Shown in pieces: positions 1,840-19,940 of a stretch of 25,676 nucleotides of DNA. The notes beneath the pieces are model-generated. The model did no database searches. It was not told where the DNA came from and saw only the letters and a list, made by a program, of their open reading frames with translations. Each line of letters begins with the position of its first letter. Position 1 is the first letter of the stretch. Source of the stretch: a virus; IMG/VR virus record IMGVR_UViG_3300045941_000138, positions 1 to 25,676 of that record. One strand, written 5' to 3'. Made by a program: the position numbers and the translations under genes.

Positions 1840-2805
1840 CTATTGCTCTATTAAGGCTTCTGCTTGGATGATCGCCCGCCCGATGATTTCCGGGATTTGC
1901 GGGACGACGGCGTTGCCGAGCTGCTTAAGGCGGTCCACCCGTCCGGGAACCCCATTAGCCACTCGACCCACCTCGGGTTCAAAAGCCCAAGGATGACGTT
2001 CACACCATGCGATTGAAGGCCACTCCTGCGGTTCGCTGTCGGCGTGGGCCATTTTCCGGTTCTCGCCATCTGGTCTAGTGATGGCCGAACCGTCGCCCCC
2101 GAGCTCGCTGATTGGTTGCTGCCGTATGTCGTCGCCGTTGGCGTTGGGAAGCGGGCAACTACATCGTTCAATTGCCATCCTCTGGAATCGGCCAATCTCT
2201 TCTGCCAGCCTTCGGCCGATCGGCTCCCACTTCGGTAATCTCTGGCAGTCGCTGACGGCAATCCGTTCCTGATGTCGTTGGCTATCTGCCCCCGCTTCTC
2301 GGCATCGTTCGCTCGCGGAGTTGGCCACAATCCAGAGGCGGTCTCGTCGGTGATGGGCGCCAACGGCGGAAGCTGGTATGCAATGCCACTCCGCATCAAA
2401 CCCGAACGCGGCCAGGTCTCCAAGAACGCGGTCCAGCCCTCGACCAAGCAACGCTGCGACGTTCTCCACGACGACGTATCGGGGTCGTAGTTCGCCAATA
2501 ATTCTGGCGTAGTCCCGCCATAGGCCGGAACGCTCGCCCTCAATGCCGACACCCTTTCCTGCGAGGCTGATGTCCTGGCATGGGAAGCCCCCGCAAATAA
2601 CGTCAACTGGTCCGATGTCGGTGGCTGTGAGTTTGGTAACGTCGTGATGGATCGGGGTGTTTGGCCAGTGTTTGGCGAGGATTTCTCGGCACTTGGGGTC
2701 AATTTCGCAGAATGCGACGGTTCGCATCCCGGCCCGTTCGAGTCCGAGGCTGAATCCGCCGATTCCGCTGAAGAGGTCGAGGACTTTAAGGGGCTCATTG
2801 GGCAT
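1840..2805 (-). CDS. C5-cytosine DNA methyltransferase (Dcm family)
   Basis: The protein transfers a methyl group from S-adenosylmethionine to cytosine C5 in DNA. Counting from the ATG at 2805 it has 321 aa. Motif I is DLFSGIGG (10-17), the catalytic PCQ is at 75-77 (C76), ENV is at 114-116 (motif VI), and HRRDR (152-156) replaces the usual QxRxR (motif VIII). The C-terminal RLKQLGNAVVPQI is motif X. The region between is the target recognition domain. An in-frame ATG at 2883 exists, but it would overlap the upstream ATPase by 65 bases. The 2805 start lies 13 bases past that stop, although no strong Shine-Dalgarno sequence precedes it. No restriction enzyme gene is adjacent, so this is probably an orphan enzyme protecting phage DNA. 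A long second frame overlaps it. Confidence 0.93.
   Translation of the reverse strand: MPNEPLKVLDLFSGIGGFSLGLERAGMRTVAFCEIDPKCREILAKHWPNTPIHHDVTKLTATDIGPVDVICGGFPCQDISLAGKGVGIEGERSGLWRDYARIIGELRPRYVVVENVAALLGRGLDRVLGDLAAFGFDAEWHCIPASAVGAHHRRDRLWIVANSASERCREAGADSQRHQERIAVSDCQRLPKWEPIGRRLAEEIGRFQRMAIERCSCPLPNANGDDIRQQPISELGGDGSAITRPDGENRKMAHADSEPQEWPSIAWCERHPWAFEPEVGRVANGVPGRVDRLKQLGNAVVPQIPEIIGRAIIQAEALIEQ
1851..2798 (-). CDS. Possible overprinted protein inside the methyltransferase gene
   Basis: This 315-codon frame lies on the same strand, shifted one base, almost entirely within the methyltransferase gene. Its C-terminal two thirds look like a known phage protein type rather than random translation. 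It has DPDTSSWRTSQ (106-115), FLETWPRSGLMRSGIAYQLP (125-144), three W/F-P-T-P segments (158-161, 217-220, 250-253) and NPRWVEWLMGFPDGWT (274-289). From memory, stand-alone phage proteins with the NPxWVEWLMGFPxGWT ending sit beside Dcm genes. The first ~65 residues are low-complexity Ser/Pro-rich and look like a plain shadow, so the real start may be internal. Whether the protein is made is unknown. Confidence 0.45.
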   Translation of the reverse strand: MSPLKSSTSSAESADSASDSNGPGCEPSHSAKLTPSAEKSSPNTGQTPRSITTLPNSQPPTSDQLTLFAGASHARTSASQERVSALRASVPAYGGTTPELLANYDPDTSSWRTSQRCLVEGWTAFLETWPRSGLMRSGIAYQLPPLAPITDETASGLWPTPRANDAEKRGQIANDIRNGLPSATARDYRSGSRSAEGWQKRLADSRGWQLNDVVARFPTPTATTYGSNQSASSGATVRPSLDQMARTGKWPTPTANRRSGLQSHGVNVILGLLNPRWVEWLMGFPDGWTALSSSATPSSRKSRKSSGGRSSKQKP

Positions 2806-2818
2806 CGCTAATTTGGTG

Positions 2819-3856
2819 TTAGTGGTTGCTTGTCTCGTATGCCTCATCCACCTCACGCGCCTGCGGTTTGAACCGGCGATCAAGCGCCGCCTTGAAATGT
2901 TTTTGATCGGCAGGCAGGAGCGTTTTCCATTCCTCTTGCAGCGCCGCCATTCCTTGCTTGGCCGCTTCGATCAGGCCGCGCTCGATCTCGGCGCGTCGAT
3001 CAGTGACGCCGACCCCGTCCTGCCGAGGCGTTGCTACAGGAGGGGTCGGCGTTTCGGACGCAGCATGGGGAATTAACCGCGCCGAACTCTGGCCGCCCTT
3101 CGCCCATTGCGCGAGATCGCGGCCGATGTTCTCGTCGAGCGGCTTGCTCTCGGCAAATATACTCTCAAACTGCTTCGGCAATTTCATCATCAATCGTTCG
3201 CCGATCTGCTCGCTTTGCCAGGTCGGAACGCCGCCGCTCTTGGGCAGCAACAGGATATTGACGGTCTGCTCGTACATGAACTCGTCGCCGGCGATCGGCA
3301 TCCATCCCATCTCGACGGGCTGTCCGCCCTTAACCGGCTTGATCTTCTCCTTGGCGCGGAAGCAGGAGATCAGTGAGACGTTCAATTGCAGGATGCCGTT
3401 GATAAGCTGGCGCCGCAGCGAAGCCGGCTTGATCCATCCGGCGATCTTGACGCGCTCGCGTTTGGCGTAGTCGTCGCCGGCCATGCGATCGACTTCGAGA
3501 TCGTGGGTCGCGAGATAACCGCCAGGCCCTTCGTGTTCGTGGCTCATGCTGTCCACGATGACAACCTTGGCGCCCTGCTTCACGCATTGCTGGATCGCGG
3601 CCAAATAATCCAAGCTCGAAAACGGCGGATCAAATTGGACATGCTTGAACTTGAATAGGTCGGCGTAGTGCAACGCACGTCGCGCCTCGGTGTCGATCAC
3701 ATAGATGTCGCCGCCGGTGACGGATTGAATCCCCGTCGCCAGTCGCAATGCGCTGTAAGTCTTGCCGCTGCCGCTCGGCCCCATAAGCCCGATCAACAGC
3801 GGAACGCTCTCGCGCACTGCGGGCTTGGCGTCGAATTGGCGAGCGGCGATGGTCAT
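2819..3856 (-). CDS. RecA-fold ATPase, Sak4-like (phage recombination/ssDNA annealing)
   Basis: A 345-aa P-loop ATPase with Walker A GPSGSGKT at 26-33 and Walker B KVVIVDSMS at 97-105. The layout (short N-terminus, P loop, IDTEARRALHY after strand 2, HEHEG after Walker B) matches the AAA_24/Sak4-like group of phage single-strand annealing or recombinase ATPases. These are RecA-core proteins lacking full RecA length. Residues after about 270 form a variable Pro-rich linker and a charged C-terminal helix. The start overlaps the GHKL ATPase stop as ATGA (3853-3856). Three genes upstream is a RecE-like nuclease, giving an exonuclease plus annealing-ATPase pair. It probably works in phage DNA repair, recombination or replication. 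The Sak4 label is by motif and context. Confidence 0.8.
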   Translation of the reverse strand: MTIAARQFDAKPAVRESVPLLIGLMGPSGSGKTYSALRLATGIQSVTGGDIYVIDTEARRALHYADLFKFKHVQFDPPFSSLDYLAAIQQCVKQGAKVVIVDSMSHEHEGPGGYLATHDLEVDRMAGDDYAKRERVKIAGWIKPASLRRQLINGILQLNVSLISCFRAKEKIKPVKGGQPVEMGWMPIAGDEFMYEQTVNILLLPKSGGVPTWQSEQIGERLMMKLPKQFESIFAESKPLDENIGRDLAQWAKGGQSSARLIPHAASETPTPPVATPRQDGVGVTDRRAEIERGLIEAAKQGMAALQEEWKTLLPADQKHFKAALDRRFKPQAREVDEAYETSNH

Positions 3857-5229
3857 AGCAATTTTTCGTCCCGTGAGGTCGCAACATTAAGGGACATCAA
3901 GTCAGCGACATGCCGTCCGTATGAGCGCAATAAATCACGTTGAAACTTGCCTTCGACGTACATCATGATTCCAATTAGGCGTAGAGCATCGGCAGCGTGT
4001 TGCTGGTCACGCAATTGTACGAATTTGTCGATGGCTGGATTGTCCGGTGATAAATAAACGCAGTCCGGGCGCCCTGGCTTGTAAAGACCAACGCCGTTCT
4101 CGTCGTTTTTGCCTTCCAATAGGATTAGCAGTCGGCCCGATTGCGGCTGTTTCGTCTTAGCTGGCCCCTTGCCTAAATCAGCCTTGTCTCGCTCAACGCG
4201 ACCGTTCGATTTTTTCTTTTGCTTAGTTTTTGCCGTTACATCTGTTTTTGGTTTGCGGCGATGTGGCCTTGCGGCAGCGATACTTTCTGGCAATCCCTCG
4301 TTAATCAATTCACCAAGCTCTGCGATCTTGGTGTCCAGTGATGCAGAGTTACATTTTTCCAAAATCGGCTCCAGTACCAATTCGAGTGCCGATTCCAATT
4401 CATCGCGTTCGTCCTCGTCGACCAATTGATCCTTGAACTTTCCTAGATGCCAAGGGCCGCTCAACTGTACGCGAGCAAACATCTGACTAATGCCACCGTA
4501 ATCACTGCAACCAATACGGTCTTTAGGCATGATGATGCGATGTTGAAAACCGACGTGAACGCCCCACAGTTTCGATGGCTCAGCTAACAGGCCACCCCTG
4601 ATCCGCGCGGTTCGTCCTGCTGTTAGGCTGATGTCACGCTCCACAATGTCGGTCAGTTTTGGATCTTTCAGATATGGCACAGCATGACCGTTGAGGACGA
4701 TCTGACGGTGGGCGCTTAGTGCTGGATGGAAACGTAGGGCAAGTTCCTCAAGTAATTTTTCGATGGTGTATTTGGATGCGGTGCGTAGCGCCGTTAATTC
4801 GATTCGTGTGCCGGTTGAGGCGCCCACCACAGTCGGCCGCCAAGTGGGATCATCGGCCTCCCATACACCTCGTCTTAAAACACTGCGCCAATTAACGCTG
4901 GCTCTAAATGTGCCATCGCGTGACGTAGAATCGACGGTGATAACATCGGCCGCGTTAATAGCTTGGGCTTTGATCCCAATCCCGAACCGTCCTAATTGCG
5001 TACCAGCCATCGCAGCATGTTCGCCAGGACTAAAGAGGGCGGGGATGCGATCTCGCGTGACTCCAATCCCATTATCTTCAAAGATGATGCGTTGGTCGTT
5101 GATTTGGATTGCAATACGTTGCGCGCCGGCGTCAAACGAGTTGTCAACCGCCTCACATAGCAGCGATTGATAATTGACGCGATCACCGCGAAATGAATAG
5201 AGCAACGTCGGCGGCGGATCGAACCTCAT
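3853..5229 (-). CDS. GHKL (Hsp90/MutL/MORC-like) ATPase
   Basis: A 458-aa protein with a complete Bergerat ATP-binding fold. The N box is [12 protein letters not shown] (E26, D29, N30, D33), the G1 box is EDNGIGV (51-57) and the G2 box is [10 protein letters not shown] (80-89). The N-box Glu used for ATP hydrolysis in GHL proteins is present. A transducer-like region follows to about 300, then a Lys-rich linker (KTKQKKKS) and a C-terminal domain with [14 protein letters not shown]. There is no histidine-kinase phosphoacceptor. The closest general types are MORC, paralogous Hsp90-like and MutL-like ATPases, which clamp DNA or remodel partners. ATGA overlaps join it to the genes before and after, so it belongs to the recombination cassette. 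Its base composition is visibly more AT-rich than its neighbours. The exact role is unknown. Confidence 0.85.
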
Positions 5230-5831
5230 CTGGATTGGTCCCCTCTGGTCAAATCGTTCAAGTTGAAGATCAGTACCTCGATTAACTCTTTGCGCTCTGC
5301 TGCTGTCAGCGATTTCAGTGTGCGCACAATGAGTCCTTTAAGTTTGATCGCGTGCTGATCCACTACCGACAAGATTGACGGCGGTGGCGGCTTGGACTTT
5401 CGCTCGGCGCGGCCCGCTGTTTCGATCGCGGTTTCAGCGGCGTGTTTGGCGGCGGCAATCTTGGCCTCTTGCTGCTGCTTTGACATCGCCGCCAGCTTTT
5501 GCCACCGGCTGCTCTGCGTCTTGCTCACGCCAAGGTCGGAGAGCTTTGGTTCGCTTACGGTGGCACCGCGCGACCGTAAGACTTCGCGCGATTGGCCCTT
5601 GCCCTTGTGCCGTTCCCCGCGCTGTTTCATCTCCGCCAGCAACTCGCCGGCGCGGATCTCGGCGCGCATCATGATTTCGGTGGCGTAGCCGATTAGCTCA
5701 TGGTCTTTGGCTTGCTTGGCATAGAGTTTCATCGCCGCAGATTTGTCTCGAATTGATTTAACCTCATCGACGCGATGTGCTTCGGCTAATGCTTTGCGCG
5801 CGGCGTTGTAGCGAGTCAGTTCGGTGTTCAA
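5226..5831 (-). CDS. Conserved phage protein of unknown function, 201 aa
   Basis: A highly charged, Ala/Lys-rich, probably helical protein. The N-terminal part ([20 protein letters not shown], then [20 protein letters not shown] and [19 protein letters not shown]) resembles a module seen in many alphaproteobacterial prophage proteins. There it is often placed near, or fused to, DNA-modifying enzymes. A ParB/KorB-like helix-turn-helix is possible around [19 protein letters not shown] (97-115), so DNA binding is plausible. It overlaps the gene on each side by four bases (5828-5831 and 5226-5229). It may be a DNA-binding partner of the recombination proteins, which is inference from position. 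Confidence 0.72.
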
Positions 5832-6016
5832 AGCAACCGCTCCCTCTCGGCCTTCGGCCGATAATCGTCGGCGATCTCTTGAAGGATTTGGATCTGCGTC
5901 GCGGCAAAGCCGTCCGTCATCCTGCCTTCGGCGATCAGGCGCGGATAAACGTGGCGCCGATATTTCAATTCGCGCTCGATCGCGGCGAGCTTTTCGCTGT
6001 CGGTATAGCTCATCAT
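5828..6016 (-). CDS. Small phage protein, about 62 aa, unknown function
   Basis: ATGs at 6016 and 6013 both lie at the end of the nuclease gene. The 6016 start makes a four-base overlap with that stop (TGA at 6015-6013). The product ([42 protein letters not shown]) is a soluble helical peptide. The pattern 'ERELxxRRxVYPxxxxxGxMTxxxAxxxIxxxxxIxxDYR' is one I associate with many rhizobial prophages, without known function. The longer upstream extension of this frame lies inside the nuclease gene and is not used. The stop overlaps the next start as ATGA. Confidence 0.75.
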
Positions 6017-6921
6017 CCTGCCGATAGGTTCTCTGCGGCTTCGTTGCTGATCTCGCGCGCCATCTCTAGCTCGAGCCATTGCGCCTCGGCCCATGCCGGC
6101 ATGTTGGGCGTTAGGATTTCGAGGTCGTATCCCGGCCAGCGGTTTGCGTTCAGGCAAATCCGCCAAGTGTCGATCGCCATTTGCAATCGCTTGCGGGCCA
6201 TGTGCATCACCGACTCGCCGATCTGCACGACGTTGAGTTGATGCGGCGGTTCGGCCTCTTGAACGACGAAAAGATATTGCCGGCGGGCGATGCTCTCGGG
6301 ATGCAGCGCGTCTAGTCCGCGCTCGGCCATCGCGGCTTGCAACGGCCATCCCGCGTTCATCATCATCGAGGGAAGCGACGACGGTGCAACGGATAAGTCG
6401 GTCGTCTTGTAGTCGGCGACGATGCGATAATCTTTCGTGAGCCAGTCGATCAACTGCCGCAACCAGACTTCCTTTTCCTGCCAGGCGATGCACACCTCGC
6501 CGCTGCCTTCGCCCTCTTGGAATAGGTTTGCCATGCCGCGAAGCTCAAGCTGTTCGTGCGCGGCTTGCACCATGCGGCCGGCGCGAGCGGCGCCACTGGC
6601 GAGGATGGCGAGCTTGCCGGCGGCGTTCGCTTCGGCTCGGGCTTCCTGCGCTTTCTTGGTGCGCCAGTCGGGATAGTCCAGCACGACGATCTCGCGGCCG
6701 CGGCCGATCAGCATGGCGTGCGCTACATTGCCGATGTCGAACTTGGTGGCGTTGTCTGGCTTGAAGTGCGTGTTGAGGCGAGGGTGTGCGTACCAAGCAT
6801 GGAGCGGCGAACGGTCGAGCAGGATCTTGGCGATCGACTGCGACAGCGATGGTTCGGTGCAGGGGTCTTTGAGATAGTCGTTCGTCGAGATGTTTGGGTA
6901 AACACCAGGAGCAGAAATCAT
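6013..6921 (-). CDS. PD-(D/E)XK nuclease, RecE/exonuclease VIII-like (DUF3799 type)
   Basis: About 302 aa from the ATG at 6921, which overlaps the HNH gene stop as ATGA (6918-6921). An ATG 12 bases further upstream is also possible. The N-terminus ([33 protein letters not shown]) and [12 protein letters not shown] are typical of the RecE-like C-terminal nuclease domain. The catalytic core is E...WLRQLIDWL followed by IVADYKTTD, giving the D...(D/E)xK set, and a later Gln near [10 protein letters not shown]. The enzyme should chew one DNA strand to leave single-stranded tails for the annealing ATPase encoded downstream. Together they form a Red/RecET-like recombination pair, although no classical RecT is present. 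Confidence 0.85.
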
Positions 6922-8676: not shown

Positions 8677-9344
8677 TATCGTCGGCCGTGGGCTGCGTTT
8701 AACGGCAGCTCCTTGGTTTTTGCGTCGGCGTGCAGCTTTGCCGCCCGCCGGGCCCGTGCGGATGCCCGCTCCTTCAATCTCTGAATCTGACCGCGGGGTA
8801 GGGTGACGAAAATCTCGCCGATCCATTCGAGTCTTACGTTTTTGATCGGGTCGGCGTTGAAGCTGTTTAGGTTGACCAGCGTGGATGATTTTCCACGCTC
8901 AATTGTTTTGAGGTACCGCTGGCCGGTCTTAAGCCGGACTGCGGCTTCTTCGCCATAGAAGCTCGCAAGCGGGTGGCGCTGATCCCGATACACCACGATC
9001 ACGTCGCCGTTTTCGTATTTTGGCATCATGGAGGGACCGGACACCTCAAAGGCAATGGTTTCCTCTGGAATGGGGAACGGTAATTCAACTGTGAACAACC
9101 CTTCCGGCGGCACTTGCTCAAATTCCGGCTCGATCACGGCGCCGGCACCGATGCGCCCCATCACCTTGACGGAATTGAGTTCCAGATAATCGATGATTGG
9201 CTGGATTTCTTGGGCCTTGATCTGTCTCTCGCCGCTAAAAATCTCTGAAATAGCGCCAGGTCGCACGCCCATAGCCACAGCTAGGCCGCCCTTTGTCTTG
9301 TCCGGCTTCGCCAGCCCTCGCTTAATCGCCTTGATATCTAGCAT
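8676..9344 (-). CDS. S24-family prophage repressor (CI/LexA type)
   Basis: A 222-aa repressor of lytic genes. The N-terminus (about 5-58) holds a helix-turn-helix (GGLAVAMGVRPGAISEIFSG). A hinge contains GRIGAGAVIE, with a candidate self-cleavage bond A67-G68. The S24 peptidase domain shows the Ser/Lys dyad: S105 in GPSMMPKYENGD and K146 in RYLKTIERG. Self-cleavage stimulated by RecA, and so SOS induction, is expected from the family. An unusual basic tail of about 37 residues (after RGQIQRL) extends past the normal domain end. The gene is divergent from the Cro-like gene across three operator sites, and its stop is fused by TAATG to the lipoprotein start. Confidence 0.93.
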   Translation of the reverse strand: MLDIKAIKRGLAKPDKTKGGLAVAMGVRPGAISEIFSGERQIKAQEIQPIIDYLELNSVKVMGRIGAGAVIEPEFEQVPPEGLFTVELPFPIPEETIAFEVSGPSMMPKYENGDVIVVYRDQRHPLASFYGEEAAVRLKTGQRYLKTIERGKSSTLVNLNSFNADPIKNVRLEWIGEIFVTLPRGQIQRLKERASARARRAAKLHADAKTKELPLNAAHGRR

Positions 9345-15134: not shown

Positions 15135-16019
15135 TTACGCTGCTAGGGCTTCCGGTTCCGCGATCGCACGGCCGCGGAGATAATCGGCGGCTTTTTGGGC
15201 TTTCGACGCACAAGTGAAAATCGCGCGTTTGTCCGCTTTCAACACCTTGAGCCACCCGTCCAAATAGGCCGCTTGGTTGTCGTGCGCGTTGTCAAAACCA
15301 AACTCGGCGCAAAGGAACGCGGCGCCAAGCTCGGCCACAAGTTCCTCAGCGGCGTAGGAGTCGGTATCGAAACGGCCCTTGAGGTCGCGATCGAGGCGCG
15401 ACTTGTGCCCCGTCCAGTGAACCAACTCATGGAACGCCGCGGCGTAATACTCGGGCAGGCTGTGAAAGTCTGACCAGGCCGGCACGGTAATGAAGTCCTT
15501 GGAGGGGATGTAGCAGGGACGGCCGGCGCCCTCGCGAAAGTCGGCGCCGCTCGCCTTAATGAAGTCGTCAGCCAAAGCCTCGCGGGTGTCGGGGTTGATG
15601 CGGCCGGCATCGGGGCCGCGGCGGACATGCTCGGGCAAGCCGTCGCATTGGTCGACGTTAAAAACGTAATATTCTTTCAGCATCGGGATCCGCTTAACGG
15701 CGTCCTCGCTGTTGCTCGGTTCGCTGCGGTCCCGCACTTCCAATTGCTTGAAGTACACAATCCGGGTCGATTTCTCGCCAGCCCGCACGGTTCCGCCGGC
15801 CTGCTTGGCCTGCTTAAACGTCAGATACCGCGGTGAGCTATAGCCCTTGTCCGCTGAGAGCCAGAACAGCAGGACGTTGATGCCGCTGTAGGGGCGGTTG
15901 CTAATCGCATTCATGGGCACGCTAGTTCCAGCGTTCCAGCCCCGCACCCACGGCACAGTCCCGGCCTCAAGCTTGGCAATCAGCCGGTCGGTAATCTCGG
16001 CATAAAGATCGCGTTTCAT
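15135..16019 (-). CDS. ardC: ArdC-type antirestriction protein (ssDNA-binding N domain plus zincin)
   Basis: The ATG at 16019 is preferred since AGAGGA lies upstream and the family begins at 'KRDLYxxITDRLIAKLExG'. It has 294 aa. The N-terminal ArdC domain (KRDLYAEITDRLIAKLEAGT, VPWVRGW, RPYSGINVLLFWLS, GEKSTRIVYFK) binds single-stranded DNA in relatives. The C-terminal domain is a metallopeptidase-like zincin with HELVHWTGH and a downstream EELVAELGAAFL. ArdC proteins protect incoming plasmid or phage DNA from restriction. The gene is transcribed opposite to the replication and packaging genes on each side, with the HTH and a small membrane peptide gene downstream, as an independent anti-defence unit. 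Confidence 0.9.
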   Translation of the reverse strand: MKRDLYAEITDRLIAKLEAGTVPWVRGWNAGTSVPMNAISNRPYSGINVLLFWLSADKGYSSPRYLTFKQAKQAGGTVRAGEKSTRIVYFKQLEVRDRSEPSNSEDAVKRIPMLKEYYVFNVDQCDGLPEHVRRGPDAGRINPDTREALADDFIKASGADFREGAGRPCYIPSKDFITVPAWSDFHSLPEYYAAAFHELVHWTGHKSRLDRDLKGRFDTDSYAAEELVAELGAAFLCAEFGFDNAHDNQAAYLDGWLKVLKADKRAIFTCASKAQKAADYLRGRAIAEPEALAA

Positions 16020-16154
16020 GTGAAGTCCTCTCGGTTCAATGCCCCGTGTCACCAGGGCGACAATTGCAACATACGCATAAAGTGCGCATGGCGTCCATTC
16101 ACGAATTGTTACGAACAAAAGGCGTATGGTTCAGCGGCTTAAACCCGTGCGTTG

Positions 16155-17223: not shown

Positions 17224-17582
17224 AAACAACGGGTTAATCGCCTGCGTCGCTAATGAACCATTAGCGCACCATACGCAAACGAGATCGGACGGCACACGCG
17301 ATCGCCGAGAACCTGGTGGGCGGACCGGCGGGGGGCAAAAACGGCGCCGCGCGGTCGGTCCCCCGTTTGCCCCTCTAAAATATCTGCCCCTTCATTTTGT
17401 TTTTTGGTTTTGAATTTTTTTGTCTGAAAACGTCGCTGGTTTTTTGGTGCGTTGGTTTGGTTGGTTGTGAGTTGGGTTAATTGGGTTCTGGCGGCGTTGG
17501 GGAGAGTTTTACTTTCTTCCTCGGAAGGCCGTTTGCTTTCGTGGCCGCGGGTTTGGTGTTTGTTGTTGAGAGGTGTGTTGCG
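17224..17582. other. Intergenic region: hairpins, then GT-rich, C-poor DNA
   Basis: No convincing gene. From left to right it holds an 8-base inverted repeat CGCTAATG/CATTAGCG (17248-17266) and a larger imperfect one. A T/G-rich tract starts near 17393, and the 120 bases from 17401 contain only about 12 C. The DNA differs sharply from its surroundings. Located between the small and large terminase genes, it could be a late promoter/terminator area or a packaging signal, but no motif proves either. Confidence 0.5.
17332..17422 (+). terminator. Possible terminator after small-terminase candidate
   Basis: Arm GGGGCAAAAACGG (17332-17344) is complementary to CCGTTTGCCCC (17363-17373) apart from two extra A residues. 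Twenty bases later comes a run of T-rich DNA (17393-17422) with six- and seven-T tracts. The gap between hairpin and T-tract is longer than in textbook terminators, so efficiency is uncertain. Confidence 0.35.
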
Positions 17583-17684
17583 ATGGTTGAGTTCACGTAC
17601 TGGCGGGCGAATTTGCCGATGGGTTGGCGGGCGTGTGCGTGCCGGATGAATTTGCATTGGCGGCTGGCGGTGCGGCGGATGTGA
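17583..17684 (+). CDS. Possible 33-aa protein
   Basis: ATG 17583 has AGAGG nine bases upstream and the frame closes at TGA 17682-17684, just before the ribosome site of the next gene. The product (MVEFTYWRANLPMGWRACAC and RLAVRRM) is basic and aromatic. An in-frame ATG at 17481 would give 67 aa. Evidence is spacing only; the DNA shares the GT-rich bias of the region. Confidence 0.3.
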   Translation: MVEFTYWRANLPMGWRACACRMNLHWRLAVRRM

Positions 17685-17697
17685 CGGAGGTCTGGTG

Positions 17698-18111
17698 ATG
17701 GGCAAGCGGAAGAAGTTGGCGGCGGTGAAGGCGGCGAAGAAGGCGAAGGCTGTGGTGCGGAAGCCGAGGAAGGCCGGGCGCAAGGGCAAGAAGAAGGGGC
17801 TGCAGGAGTTTGCCGAGGGTGTTGCGCCGGCGCGTTCGGCGGATGCGTATTTGATCCCGGAGGTTCCTAGCGACGAGTATCCGGTTGAGTTGACGGAGCC
17901 TGCGGCGGTGAAGCGGCCGGCTGCGGGTGCGGTGGAGCCGGCGCTGGTGGTTCCGTACATCCGGGCGTGGCCGTCGCGGATGGCGCCGCAGGCGGCGAGC
18001 GAGATTGATCTGGTCAGCCGGGTGGAGCGGATGTTGGCGATTCGTTCCAAGGTTGGGGTCGAGCGGGTGGTGCAGCGCGGGCTTTCGTCGCGGCTCAAGG
18101 GCGGCAAGTGA
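17698..18111 (+). CDS. Lys/Ala-rich basic phage protein, 137 aa
   Basis: GGAGG (17686-17690) lies seven bases before ATG 17698. The first 35 residues are a histone-H1-like Lys/Ala tract (KRKKLAAVKAAKKAKAVVRK, PRKAGRKGKKKG). The rest is Pro/Val-rich (EVPSDEYPVELTEPAAV) with an amphipathic C-terminus (ASEIDLVSRVERMLAIRSKV). No family recognised. The charge suggests DNA or RNA binding. It uses G/T-ending codons heavily, unlike the terminase downstream, which prefers C/G endings. Confidence 0.62.
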   Translation: MGKRKKLAAVKAAKKAKAVVRKPRKAGRKGKKKGLQEFAEGVAPARSADAYLIPEVPSDEYPVELTEPAAVKRPAAGAVEPALVVPYIRAWPSRMAPQAASEIDLVSRVERMLAIRSKVGVERVVQRGLSSRLKGGK

Positions 18112-18112
18112 G

Positions 18113-18283
18113 ATGGGCGAGCTGGTCGAGTTGCCGGTGGTGTTTCGCGACAGCGACGGTTGGCGCTCGCAGGAGATCCGGCGGCGGCGGCTGTGGCAGG
18201 CATTCGGCGACCGGCTGTGGGAGGTGACGGTGGAGCTGCCGGTGGTTCTGGTCGATGGGCCGGCCGAGGATCCGGCGGCTTGA
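18113..18283 (+). CDS. Small phage protein, 56 aa, unknown function
   Basis: ATG 18113 follows the previous stop by one base. The product (MGELVELPVVFRDSDGWRSQ, EIRRRRLWQAFGDRLWEVTV, ELPVVLVDGP) is probably a small beta-containing protein. The frame upstream of 18113 lies inside the previous gene and is ignored. Not recognised; its tight spacing in the pre-terminase cluster supports reality. Confidence 0.55.
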   Translation: MGELVELPVVFRDSDGWRSQEIRRRRLWQAFGDRLWEVTVELPVVLVDGPAEDPAA

Positions 18284-18302
18284 CGATAGGGAGACGGATC
18301 AG

Positions 18303-18428
18303 ATGCCATTTCGCAAGGTGGGGCGGTCGTACCGTTCGGCGTCGGGGAAGAAGTACACCGCGCGTCAGGTGCGGGCGTATTATGCGACGTCGGGTTTCAA
18401 GCGGTCGCCGCGGCGGCGCCGCCGTTAA
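18303..18428 (+). CDS. Small Arg-rich phage protein, 41 aa
   Basis: Ribosome site AGGGAG (18288-18293) precedes ATG 18303; the frame ends at TAA 18426-18428, ten bases before the large terminase start. The product (MPFRKVGRSYRSASGKKYTA, RQVRAYYATSGFKR, ending in a five-Arg run) is strongly basic. The form 'MPFRKVG...Y.S.SG..YT..QV..YYAT.GFKR' looks like a small conserved phage protein often just before terL. Function unknown, possibly DNA- or terminase-associated. Confidence 0.68.
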   Translation: MPFRKVGRSYRSASGKKYTARQVRAYYATSGFKRSPRRRRR

Positions 18429-18437
18429 GCGTTTCAC

Positions 18438-19940
18438 ATGAAGCAGTTCAAGCCGGACGGCGAGGTGCTGCGCGCGTTCATGTCGTCGTCGGCGCTGGTC
18501 AAGATCATCCAGGGGCCGATCGGGTCGGGCAAGACCCTGGCCTGCGCGATGAATTTGTGGATGAAGGCGCTGCAGCAGGTGGTGCGGAGCGACGGCTGCC
18601 GGTACGGCCGCGCGCACGTGTTCCGCGACACCTACAACAAGCTCGAGGACACCACGCTCAAGACCTGGCTGGAGTGGTTTCCGGAAGCCGAGTTCGGACG
18701 CTTCTACTGGTCGAAGCCCATGCTGCACGAGATGCGGATCGGCAACATCCGGTTCGACGTGCATTTCGTCGCGCTGGAGGACGATCGCTCGGTCGACTAC
18801 TTCCGGTCATTGGAGACCACGATCTGCTGGTTCAACGAATTGCAGTTCATGGACCGGCCGCTGTTCGACGAGGCGGTGACGCGGGTCGGCAGGTATCCGC
18901 GGGCGATCGACGGCGGCGCGGTGATGCCGCAGGTGATCGCCGACATGAACGCGCCGGACGAGCACCATTGGGTGCCGATCATGCGCAAGGATGTGGCGGT
19001 GCCGGACTGGTTCTCCGAGGACCAGCGGCGGGCGCACAAGCAGCCGGAGAACTGGGAGTTCTACGTGCAGCCGCCGGGGCTGATCGAATTAAAAGACGGC
19101 GAGGATGTGCGCTACGAGCCGAACCCGGAGGCCGAGAACCTCAAGTTCCTGCCGGGCGGGCCGCAGTATTACCTCAACGCCACGCAGGGCAAGACCAAGG
19201 CGTGGATCGACGCCAACGTCCTGAACCGCGTGTCGGCGCGGCGCGACGGCAAGCCGGTGCTGCGCGACTTCAACAGGAAGGCCCATGTGGCGGCAAAGCC
19301 GATCGAGCCGATGCCGGGCGTCGACATCCTGATCGGCTGCGATTTCGGCCGGCGGCCGTGCGCCATCTTCGGCCAGTACGTGCGCGGCGCCTGGACCATC
19401 ATCCACGAACTCATTTCGCGCGACATGGGGGCGGACCAGTTCGCGCCGCGGCTGAAGAACGAGATCGCGCAGAAGTTCCCCGGCTTCCAGTTCAAGATCT
19501 GGGGCGACCCGTCCGGCGACTATCCGGGCCAGAACGACCAGCAGACCCCGTTCCAGATCTTCCGCAAGCACCGCCTGCCGATCCTCGAGGCGCCGAGCAT
19601 TCTGTTCACGGTGCGGCTGCAGGCGATGGAGGCGGTGGTGACGCGGATGACCGAGGGGCGCCCGGCGTTTTCGGTGTCGCCGTCGTGCGCGATGCTGATC
19701 GCGGCGCTGGACGGCGGCTGGCGGTTCCGGCGGCTCAAGGTGATGGGCGAGCGCTACGCCGATGAAGCTGAGAAGGACCACTATAGCGACCCGGCTGATG
19801 CCTGCGGCTACCTGCTGCTGGGCGGCGGCGAGGGCCGCGTGCTGCTGCGCGGATCCGCCGAACCGGCCAGGCCGGTGCAGACCAAGCGGCCGTTCAACCC
19901 GTGGAAGGAGACGCGGCGCCCGGCGGTGCGGGGATGGTGA
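18438..19940 (+). CDS. terL: Large terminase subunit (packaging ATPase/nuclease)
   Basis: A 500-aa DNA-packaging motor. The ATPase domain has Walker A GPIGSGKT (26-33) and Walker B TICWFNE (128-134, with Glu after the Asp/Asn position). The C-terminal RNase H-like nuclease shows DILIGCDFGRRP (D302), IWGDPSGDYPGQND (D357 region) and a final KDHYSDPADACGYLLLGG acidic site. It hydrolyses ATP to push DNA into the procapsid and cuts the concatemer. This is the type found in podoviruses such as BPP-1 relatives. It is followed immediately (overlap of 7 bases at ATG 19934) by a conserved small gene and then the portal. Confidence 0.94.
   Translation: MKQFKPDGEVLRAFMSSSALVKIIQGPIGSGKTLACAMNLWMKALQQVVRSDGCRYGRAHVFRDTYNKLEDTTLKTWLEWFPEAEFGRFYWSKPMLHEMRIGNIRFDVHFVALEDDRSVDYFRSLETTICWFNELQFMDRPLFDEAVTRVGRYPRAIDGGAVMPQVIADMNAPDEHHWVPIMRKDVAVPDWFSEDQRRAHKQPENWEFYVQPPGLIELKDGEDVRYEPNPEAENLKFLPGGPQYYLNATQGKTKAWIDANVLNRVSARRDGKPVLRDFNRKAHVAAKPIEPMPGVDILIGCDFGRRPCAIFGQYVRGAWTIIHELISRDMGADQFAPRLKNEIAQKFPGFQFKIWGDPSGDYPGQNDQQTPFQIFRKHRLPILEAPSILFTVRLQAMEAVVTRMTEGRPAFSVSPSCAMLIAALDGGWRFRRLKVMGERYADEAEKDHYSDPADACGYLLLGGGEGRVLLRGSAEPARPVQTKRPFNPWKETRRPAVRGW

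Follow-up and report, generated by a model that had tools for sequence, protein, structure and literature searches.

In eukaryotes, genes and transposons are silenced by MORC ATPases, whose prokaryotic relatives are familiar chiefly from restriction-modification (R-M) and defence. MORC2 acts on DNA as a clamp and compacts it (PMC12216690), and Iyer 2008 describes R-M contexts for MORC and paraMORC proteins (PMC2292703). Further systems that invite comparison with the locus presented below are the GHKL ATPases of Z1 islands, the restriction enzymes BbrUII/HgiDII and the paraMORC3/Shedu protein VcSduA (both with an N-terminal GHKL domain), the loader systems in which ParB works with ParA or SMC, and the phage RecE-Sak4 pair. 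The locus lies in a stretch of 25,676 nucleotides (hereafter the window), positions 1 to 25,676 of IMG/VR record IMGVR_UViG_3300045941_000138, and its central gene encodes a MORC-like GHKL ATPase of 458 aa (P0001).

With eukaryotic MORC2, MORC3 and MORC4 this protein shares a predicted GHKL + S5 fold (VIA Z 21-22), all of the ATP motifs and the invariant S5 Lys, but it has neither the signature motif nor the CW finger, and in phages a small partner is encoded by a separate gene. The GHKL + S5 organisation is likewise common to the MORC/paraMORC proteins of R-M systems (PMC2292703) and to the Z1-island GHKLs, which together are the nearest relatives found outside phages (24-30% identity). R-M operons, however, are marked by an SF2 helicase together with a restriction endonuclease, and neither was detected in the window operon with Pfam and PHROGs; the phage module instead has a swappable adaptor and an early-region position, and the recurrent neighbours of its family are the partner, YqaJ/RecE and replication genes. 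VcSduA ends in a nuclease (PMC12137116), whereas P0001 ends in a domain of approximately 80 aa in which no nuclease motif was seen. The BbrUII/HgiDII model (NF050001, 659 positions) describes a restriction enzyme of about 659 aa, and P0001 reaches 47.3 bits against its cut-off of 550, over the N-terminal part only.

Approximately half of the distinct loci in the family pair the GHKL gene with a ParB-like protein carrying DGRNR and NxxRRxL motifs, which recalls the ParB loader systems; yet the ATPase is MORC-like rather than ParA or SMC, the Glu of ENxxR is replaced in every sequence having that motif, and the window partner is not ParB-like. The main text of a ParB-fold survey (PMC12704722) names neither GHKL nor Hsp90. 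PADLOC gave weak GHKL similarity only (best MzaB, 2.5e-9, for a relative), and no named system corresponding to the module was found in Pfam, PHROGs, NCBIfam, PADLOC or the papers searched. Each component falls within a known superfamily; what seems to be undescribed is their pairing in phages, in which the targeting subunit can be exchanged and the tail is shared.

Layout of the window

Gene content indicates a fragment of a temperate tailed phage, with an integrase and a CI-like repressor and, on the opposite side, a terminase, a head-tail adaptor, a protease and a major head protein. The operon of interest runs on the minus strand in the order HNH, RecE-like PD-(D/E)XK exonuclease (6013..6921; phrog_412 exonuclease VIII, 3e-57), a 65-aa ORF (5828..6016), the 201-aa partner p201 (P0002; 5226..5831, TTG start), the GHKL ATPase (3853..5229), a Sak4-like ATPase (2819..3856; AAA_24, PF13479 1.5e-6), a C5-cytosine methyltransferase recognised by profile matches (1840..2805), a small ORF that, judged by eye, may be an excisionase, and the integrase. 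Consecutive genes from RecE to Sak4 overlap by 4 bases each: ATGA between RecE and the 65-aa ORF, TTGA between the 65-aa ORF and p201, and ATGA both between p201 and the GHKL gene (5226-5229) and between the GHKL gene and Sak4 (3853-3856). The arrangement given in the original prediction, with a Sak4-like neighbour and a 201-aa gene joined to the ATPase by 4-base overlaps and a RecE-like nuclease further upstream, is therefore borne out, the nuclease being separated from p201 by the 65-aa ORF. ORFs resembling the latter were noticed at 8943-9134 of locus L010 (tblastn 2.7e-5) and, by eye, after the GHKL gene of L087 (9397-9756).

The GHKL gene has a GC of 0.513 and a GC3 of 0.51, and the GC3 of its neighbours is about 0.6-0.8, so the AT-rich composition that had been remarked on is real. 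Since nearly all members of the GHKL family lie below their own locus in GC, this dip alone does not prove recent acquisition, and the later arrival that had been read from it is weakly founded.

Elsewhere in the window, an anti-restriction protein gene lies at 15135-16118 on the minus strand (phrog_7245, 4e-88). A 504-aa ORF without a PHROG match at 17250-18764, also on the minus strand, lies where the sequence is strongly G-skewed, and it may be a spurious frame opposite a coding region. A second metagenome contig (IMGVR_UViG_3300045926_000191, L019) is identical to the window at the protein level between the repressor and the beginning of p201, at which it stops; the same phage was thus present in two samples.

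A MORC-like ATPase

The match of P0001 to PF13589 (HATPase_c_3), at 5.6e-14, clears the curated threshold. In an alignment of 22 family members the N box (E26, D29, N30), G1 (D52, G54, G56), G2 (G83, G85, K87) and G3 (T141) are invariant, as are R231 and K266 of S5, so that P0001 has the four boxes and catalytic Glu (E26) that define GHKL ATPases, followed by the S5 domain with a conserved basic residue expected in the MORC family. An intact Bergerat-fold ATPase, as had been proposed, is what these matches describe. A structure model built from 21 viral sequences (mean pLDDT 80, pTM 0.68) shows an ordered GHKL + S5 module (aa 4-300; 4330..5220, minus strand, as also delimited by alignment), a disordered K/R-rich linker (about aa 316-366; 4132..4284, minus strand) with a net charge of +13, and a small C-terminal domain (aa 367-447; 3889..4131, minus strand, from alignment and model) that is a possible docking surface. 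The charge of the linker is a family trait, being net positive in 21/22 members with a median of +7 against −5 for the remaining protein.

The MORC-like reading of the original prediction, and the structural check proposed with it, agree with the model. Foldseek places MORC2 and MORC3 at the top (1.9e-17), and VIA gives Z values of 22.1 for MORC3, 21.5 for MORC2, 18.3 for Hsp90 and 17.8 for topo VI-B, so that, as modelled, the predicted fold is nearest to MORC2/3/4. Among models for other members of the superfamily, the NCBIfam HtpG model gives 13.4 bits against 371 (with the Hsp90 Z of 18 against 22 for MORC), and the MutL equivalog, which applies to whole proteins, gives 25.3 bits against the 180 required and covers aa 24-67 only. 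The strict MORC signature given for S5 by Iyer 2008 (GhXhhpXXRhl; PMC2292703) is absent from P0001, whose corresponding 11-residue segment departs from it at positions 5 and 6, and it is present in only 5/45 family members; for this reason we call P0001 MORC-like, and not MORC.

A constant partner gene with an exchanged front and a shared tail

A search with P0001 alone, and one with a two-sequence alignment, found one near-identical contig and nothing else. The family was opened by a mixed alignment that included restriction-system GHKLs and reached 57 viral loci; about 50 contigs with the family came from a subsequent scan, and removal of near-copies left 45 distinct loci, of which 41 are in the tree (of the other four, one GHKL gene is cut at a contig end and three are distant). 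Two scans of genome contigs, the second with one pattern only, gave no match, a result that is not proof of absence from host genomes.

A small gene on the same strand abuts the GHKL gene in 41/41 tree loci. The partners are p201 in 6 loci, DUF3102-like or tail-matched in 9, a plain HTH protein in 1, ParB-like in 22 (21 by profile, in one cluster, and 1 by eye) and other in 3, where the DUF3102 label rests on Pfam (L082 above the cut-off, L085 below it) and the ParB label on PF02195 and PHROGs partition families for the members tested. Every ParB-profile match in the fetched loci adjoins a GHKL gene. Judged from this gene order, the conserved unit is the GHKL gene together with its abutting small partner, which in the window is p201. 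Two loci (L079 and L080) have at the 3' end of the GHKL gene an ORF, RuvC-like by eye, with a 4-base overlap.

The model of p201 consists of a helical N-terminal module, a second helical stretch and a C-terminal helical hairpin (aa 156-196; 5244..5366, minus strand) modelled at a pLDDT of about 89; the whole has no match in the PDB at E 0.001. On the GHKL tree the partner kinds, taken all together, need 15 changes, and p201, DUF3102 and HTH partners alternate within the supported 10-member clade of the window while keeping the same C-terminal hairpin of about 45 aa. The N-domains of p201 and DUF3102 partners are unrelated (hhalign probability 5), whereas a relationship is seen over the final ~45 residues (probability 42, E 2.6e-4). 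When a profile made from six p201-type tails was searched against 2587 ORF C-termini of the same loci, the first seven non-self matches were seven GHKL partners of other kinds (1.4e-5 to 0.016), and it also matched, at 4e-6, the partners of two later loci outside the training set (L202 and L204). Partners of the p201, DUF3102 and HTH kinds, and some others, clearly share the tail; in ParB-like partners neither the tail profile nor hhalign found it, except in L113 (0.016). P0002 itself has no ParB match in Pfam or PHROGs, and its N-domain bears no similarity to the ParB partners (hhalign 0.4-0.5), so the ParB fold occurs only in the partners of other loci.

When the 80 viral proteins most similar to P0002 were examined in the reciprocal direction, only two had the tail; the set was picked by likeness to the whole of P0002 and hence somewhat favours tail-bearing members. 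Both of the two adjoin a GHKL gene. Two more are truncated where their contig stops, and the others finish in an MT-A70 methylase or in other sequence, with no GHKL gene nearby. We propose the tail as the GHKL-docking element. Fusions of the p201 N-domain to MT-A70 methylases are common in other phages (L125 and L127-L132, among others), and this N-domain looks like a general targeting module. The original prediction had taken the 201-aa protein for a possible DNA-binding protein, and it probably is one; that it belongs with the ATPase is in keeping with the pairing survey and with a tail that, in the 80-protein set, occurs only beside GHKL genes.

Recombination setting and accessory status

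The original prediction had also joined nuclease, annealing ATPase and GHKL protein into one machine. Nine other viral loci carry a relative of the window Sak4 (or RecE), and RecE and Sak4 are together in all of them (9/9), with the GHKL gene between them in none (0/9); most GHKL loci have no Sak4 detected within the fetched flanks. We consequently rejected a conserved RecE-p201-GHKL-Sak4 machine. From the gene content of these loci, the exonuclease (RecE-like) and the annealing ATPase (Sak4-like) form an ordinary conserved pair, which flanks the module in this phage, and Sak4 is not a conserved companion of GHKL. The survey of co-occurrence thus dissolved the trio and left the pair of GHKL and 201-aa genes standing. 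In the RecE-Sak4 loci examined (L010-L017 and L020) the slot between the two genes is variable, being empty or occupied by HNH or by unrelated 155-aa or 204-aa genes.

The nuclease found at GHKL loci varies (YqaJ family, RecE, a different order, or none detected in the flanks). A YqaJ or RecE gene occurs in the fetched flanks of 17 loci, and in 12 of these it lies on the GHKL strand no more than 2.5 kb away, where uniform placement would give 4.6 (p 2e-4). RecE overlaps the 3' end of the GHKL gene in L082, with Sak4 2.2 kb further on; Sak4 is upstream of GHKL within 2.5 kb in L204 and L205; and replication genes recur nearby (e.g., phrog_2509 in L056). Since early genes cluster, this enrichment speaks to location and not to mechanism: of the recombination operon first proposed, the neighbourhood survives and the fixed nuclease-annealase-GHKL machine does not.

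Mycobacterium phage Bobby is the one cultured phage found with a full-length family member. Its gp95 (ParB-like) and gp96 (GHKL) lie near the repressor inside a 3.47-kb cassette, gp93-gp97, that is missing at the same place in the sister phages Dove and ThreeRngTarjay. The cassette (L003 4361-7833) sits exactly between two genes, and about 25 bases of the sister phages match both of its edges. Its absence from the sister phages makes the GHKL module accessory, and dispensable on M. smegmatis in the laboratory.

Discussion

We put at about even the chance that the two genes form a phage module in which a MORC-like ATPase clamp is combined with a DNA-targeting adaptor. The ATPase motifs, the predicted fold, the gene pairing, the exchange of N-domains on a constant tail and the K/R-rich linker, all read from sequence, support it, and from them we infer partner-ATPase contact, DNA binding, clamp closure and a biological purpose. 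The partner (p201 here; DUF3102-like, HTH or ParB-like elsewhere) would contact DNA through its N-terminal part and, in the window clade, would hold the ATPase by its conserved C-terminal hairpin. ATP binding would then shut the GHKL dimer around DNA with the K/R-rich linker assisting, a step like the one shown for MORC2 (PMC12216690), and hydrolysis would reopen it. Phage or competing DNA would thereby be tethered, looped or compacted early in infection, the module being transcribed together with recombination and replication genes. A bolder form is conceivable, though we lean against it: a phage MORC-type clamp would take plug-in specificity subunits (ParB-like, p201, DUF3102 or HTH), be loaded by them on chosen DNA and compact or silence DNA within infected cells. 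It would parallel, in a virus, the loading of SMC by ParB or the recruitment of MORC to chromatin.

The module could instead be a phage-kept orphan relative of the R-M MORCs and paraMORCs that defends against competing phages, the partner recognising foreign DNA, the ATPase blocking or tethering it, and self DNA perhaps being marked by the C5 methylase. The nearest non-phage matches are indeed GHKL ATPases (those inspected, 4/4, in Dcm-GHKL-Z1-PD-(D/E)XK islands), NCBIfam and PADLOC give BbrUII/HgiDII, MzaB and restriction enzymes as matches (each of them weak), the operon includes a C5 methylase, and the Bobby module is an accessory cassette by the repressor. We nevertheless regard this as unlikely, given that GHKL and partner come without an SF2 helicase or restriction nuclease, that a methylase profile matches in the fetched flanks of only 4/45 distinct loci, and that the module is placed in the early replication/recombination region.

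MutL helps mismatch repair, and a GHKL clamp could in a similar way load at ends or forks and aid the exonuclease-annealase pair. Translational coupling with RecE and Sak4 in the window, the arrangement in L082 and the excess of nearby same-strand exonucleases are what would be expected of such an accessory to recombination, but the nine other relatives found all have the RecE-Sak4 pair without GHKL, a nuclease goes undetected in the flanks of most GHKL loci, nuclease family and order vary, and the excess is confounded by the general clustering of early genes, which makes this role quite improbable. We give still less credence, and consider it very improbable, that the pair covers the phage's DNA or compacts it as a protection from host nucleases, or that it binds a defence ATPase of the host. 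An accessory, early module with a swappable specificity part, in a phage that also carries an anti-restriction gene, would suit such counter-defence, but PADLOC gives weak general GHKL similarity only and the role would have to be surmised.

If the two-gene clamp-and-adaptor reading is true, a stand-alone MORC-like ATPase with a separate, interchangeable targeting subunit would be a minimal system for MORC clamp loading, and the swapped front domains on a constant tail would offer a direct and cheap test of that loading. The module would then be an unrecognised viral device for DNA management or conflict, spread through very different phages.
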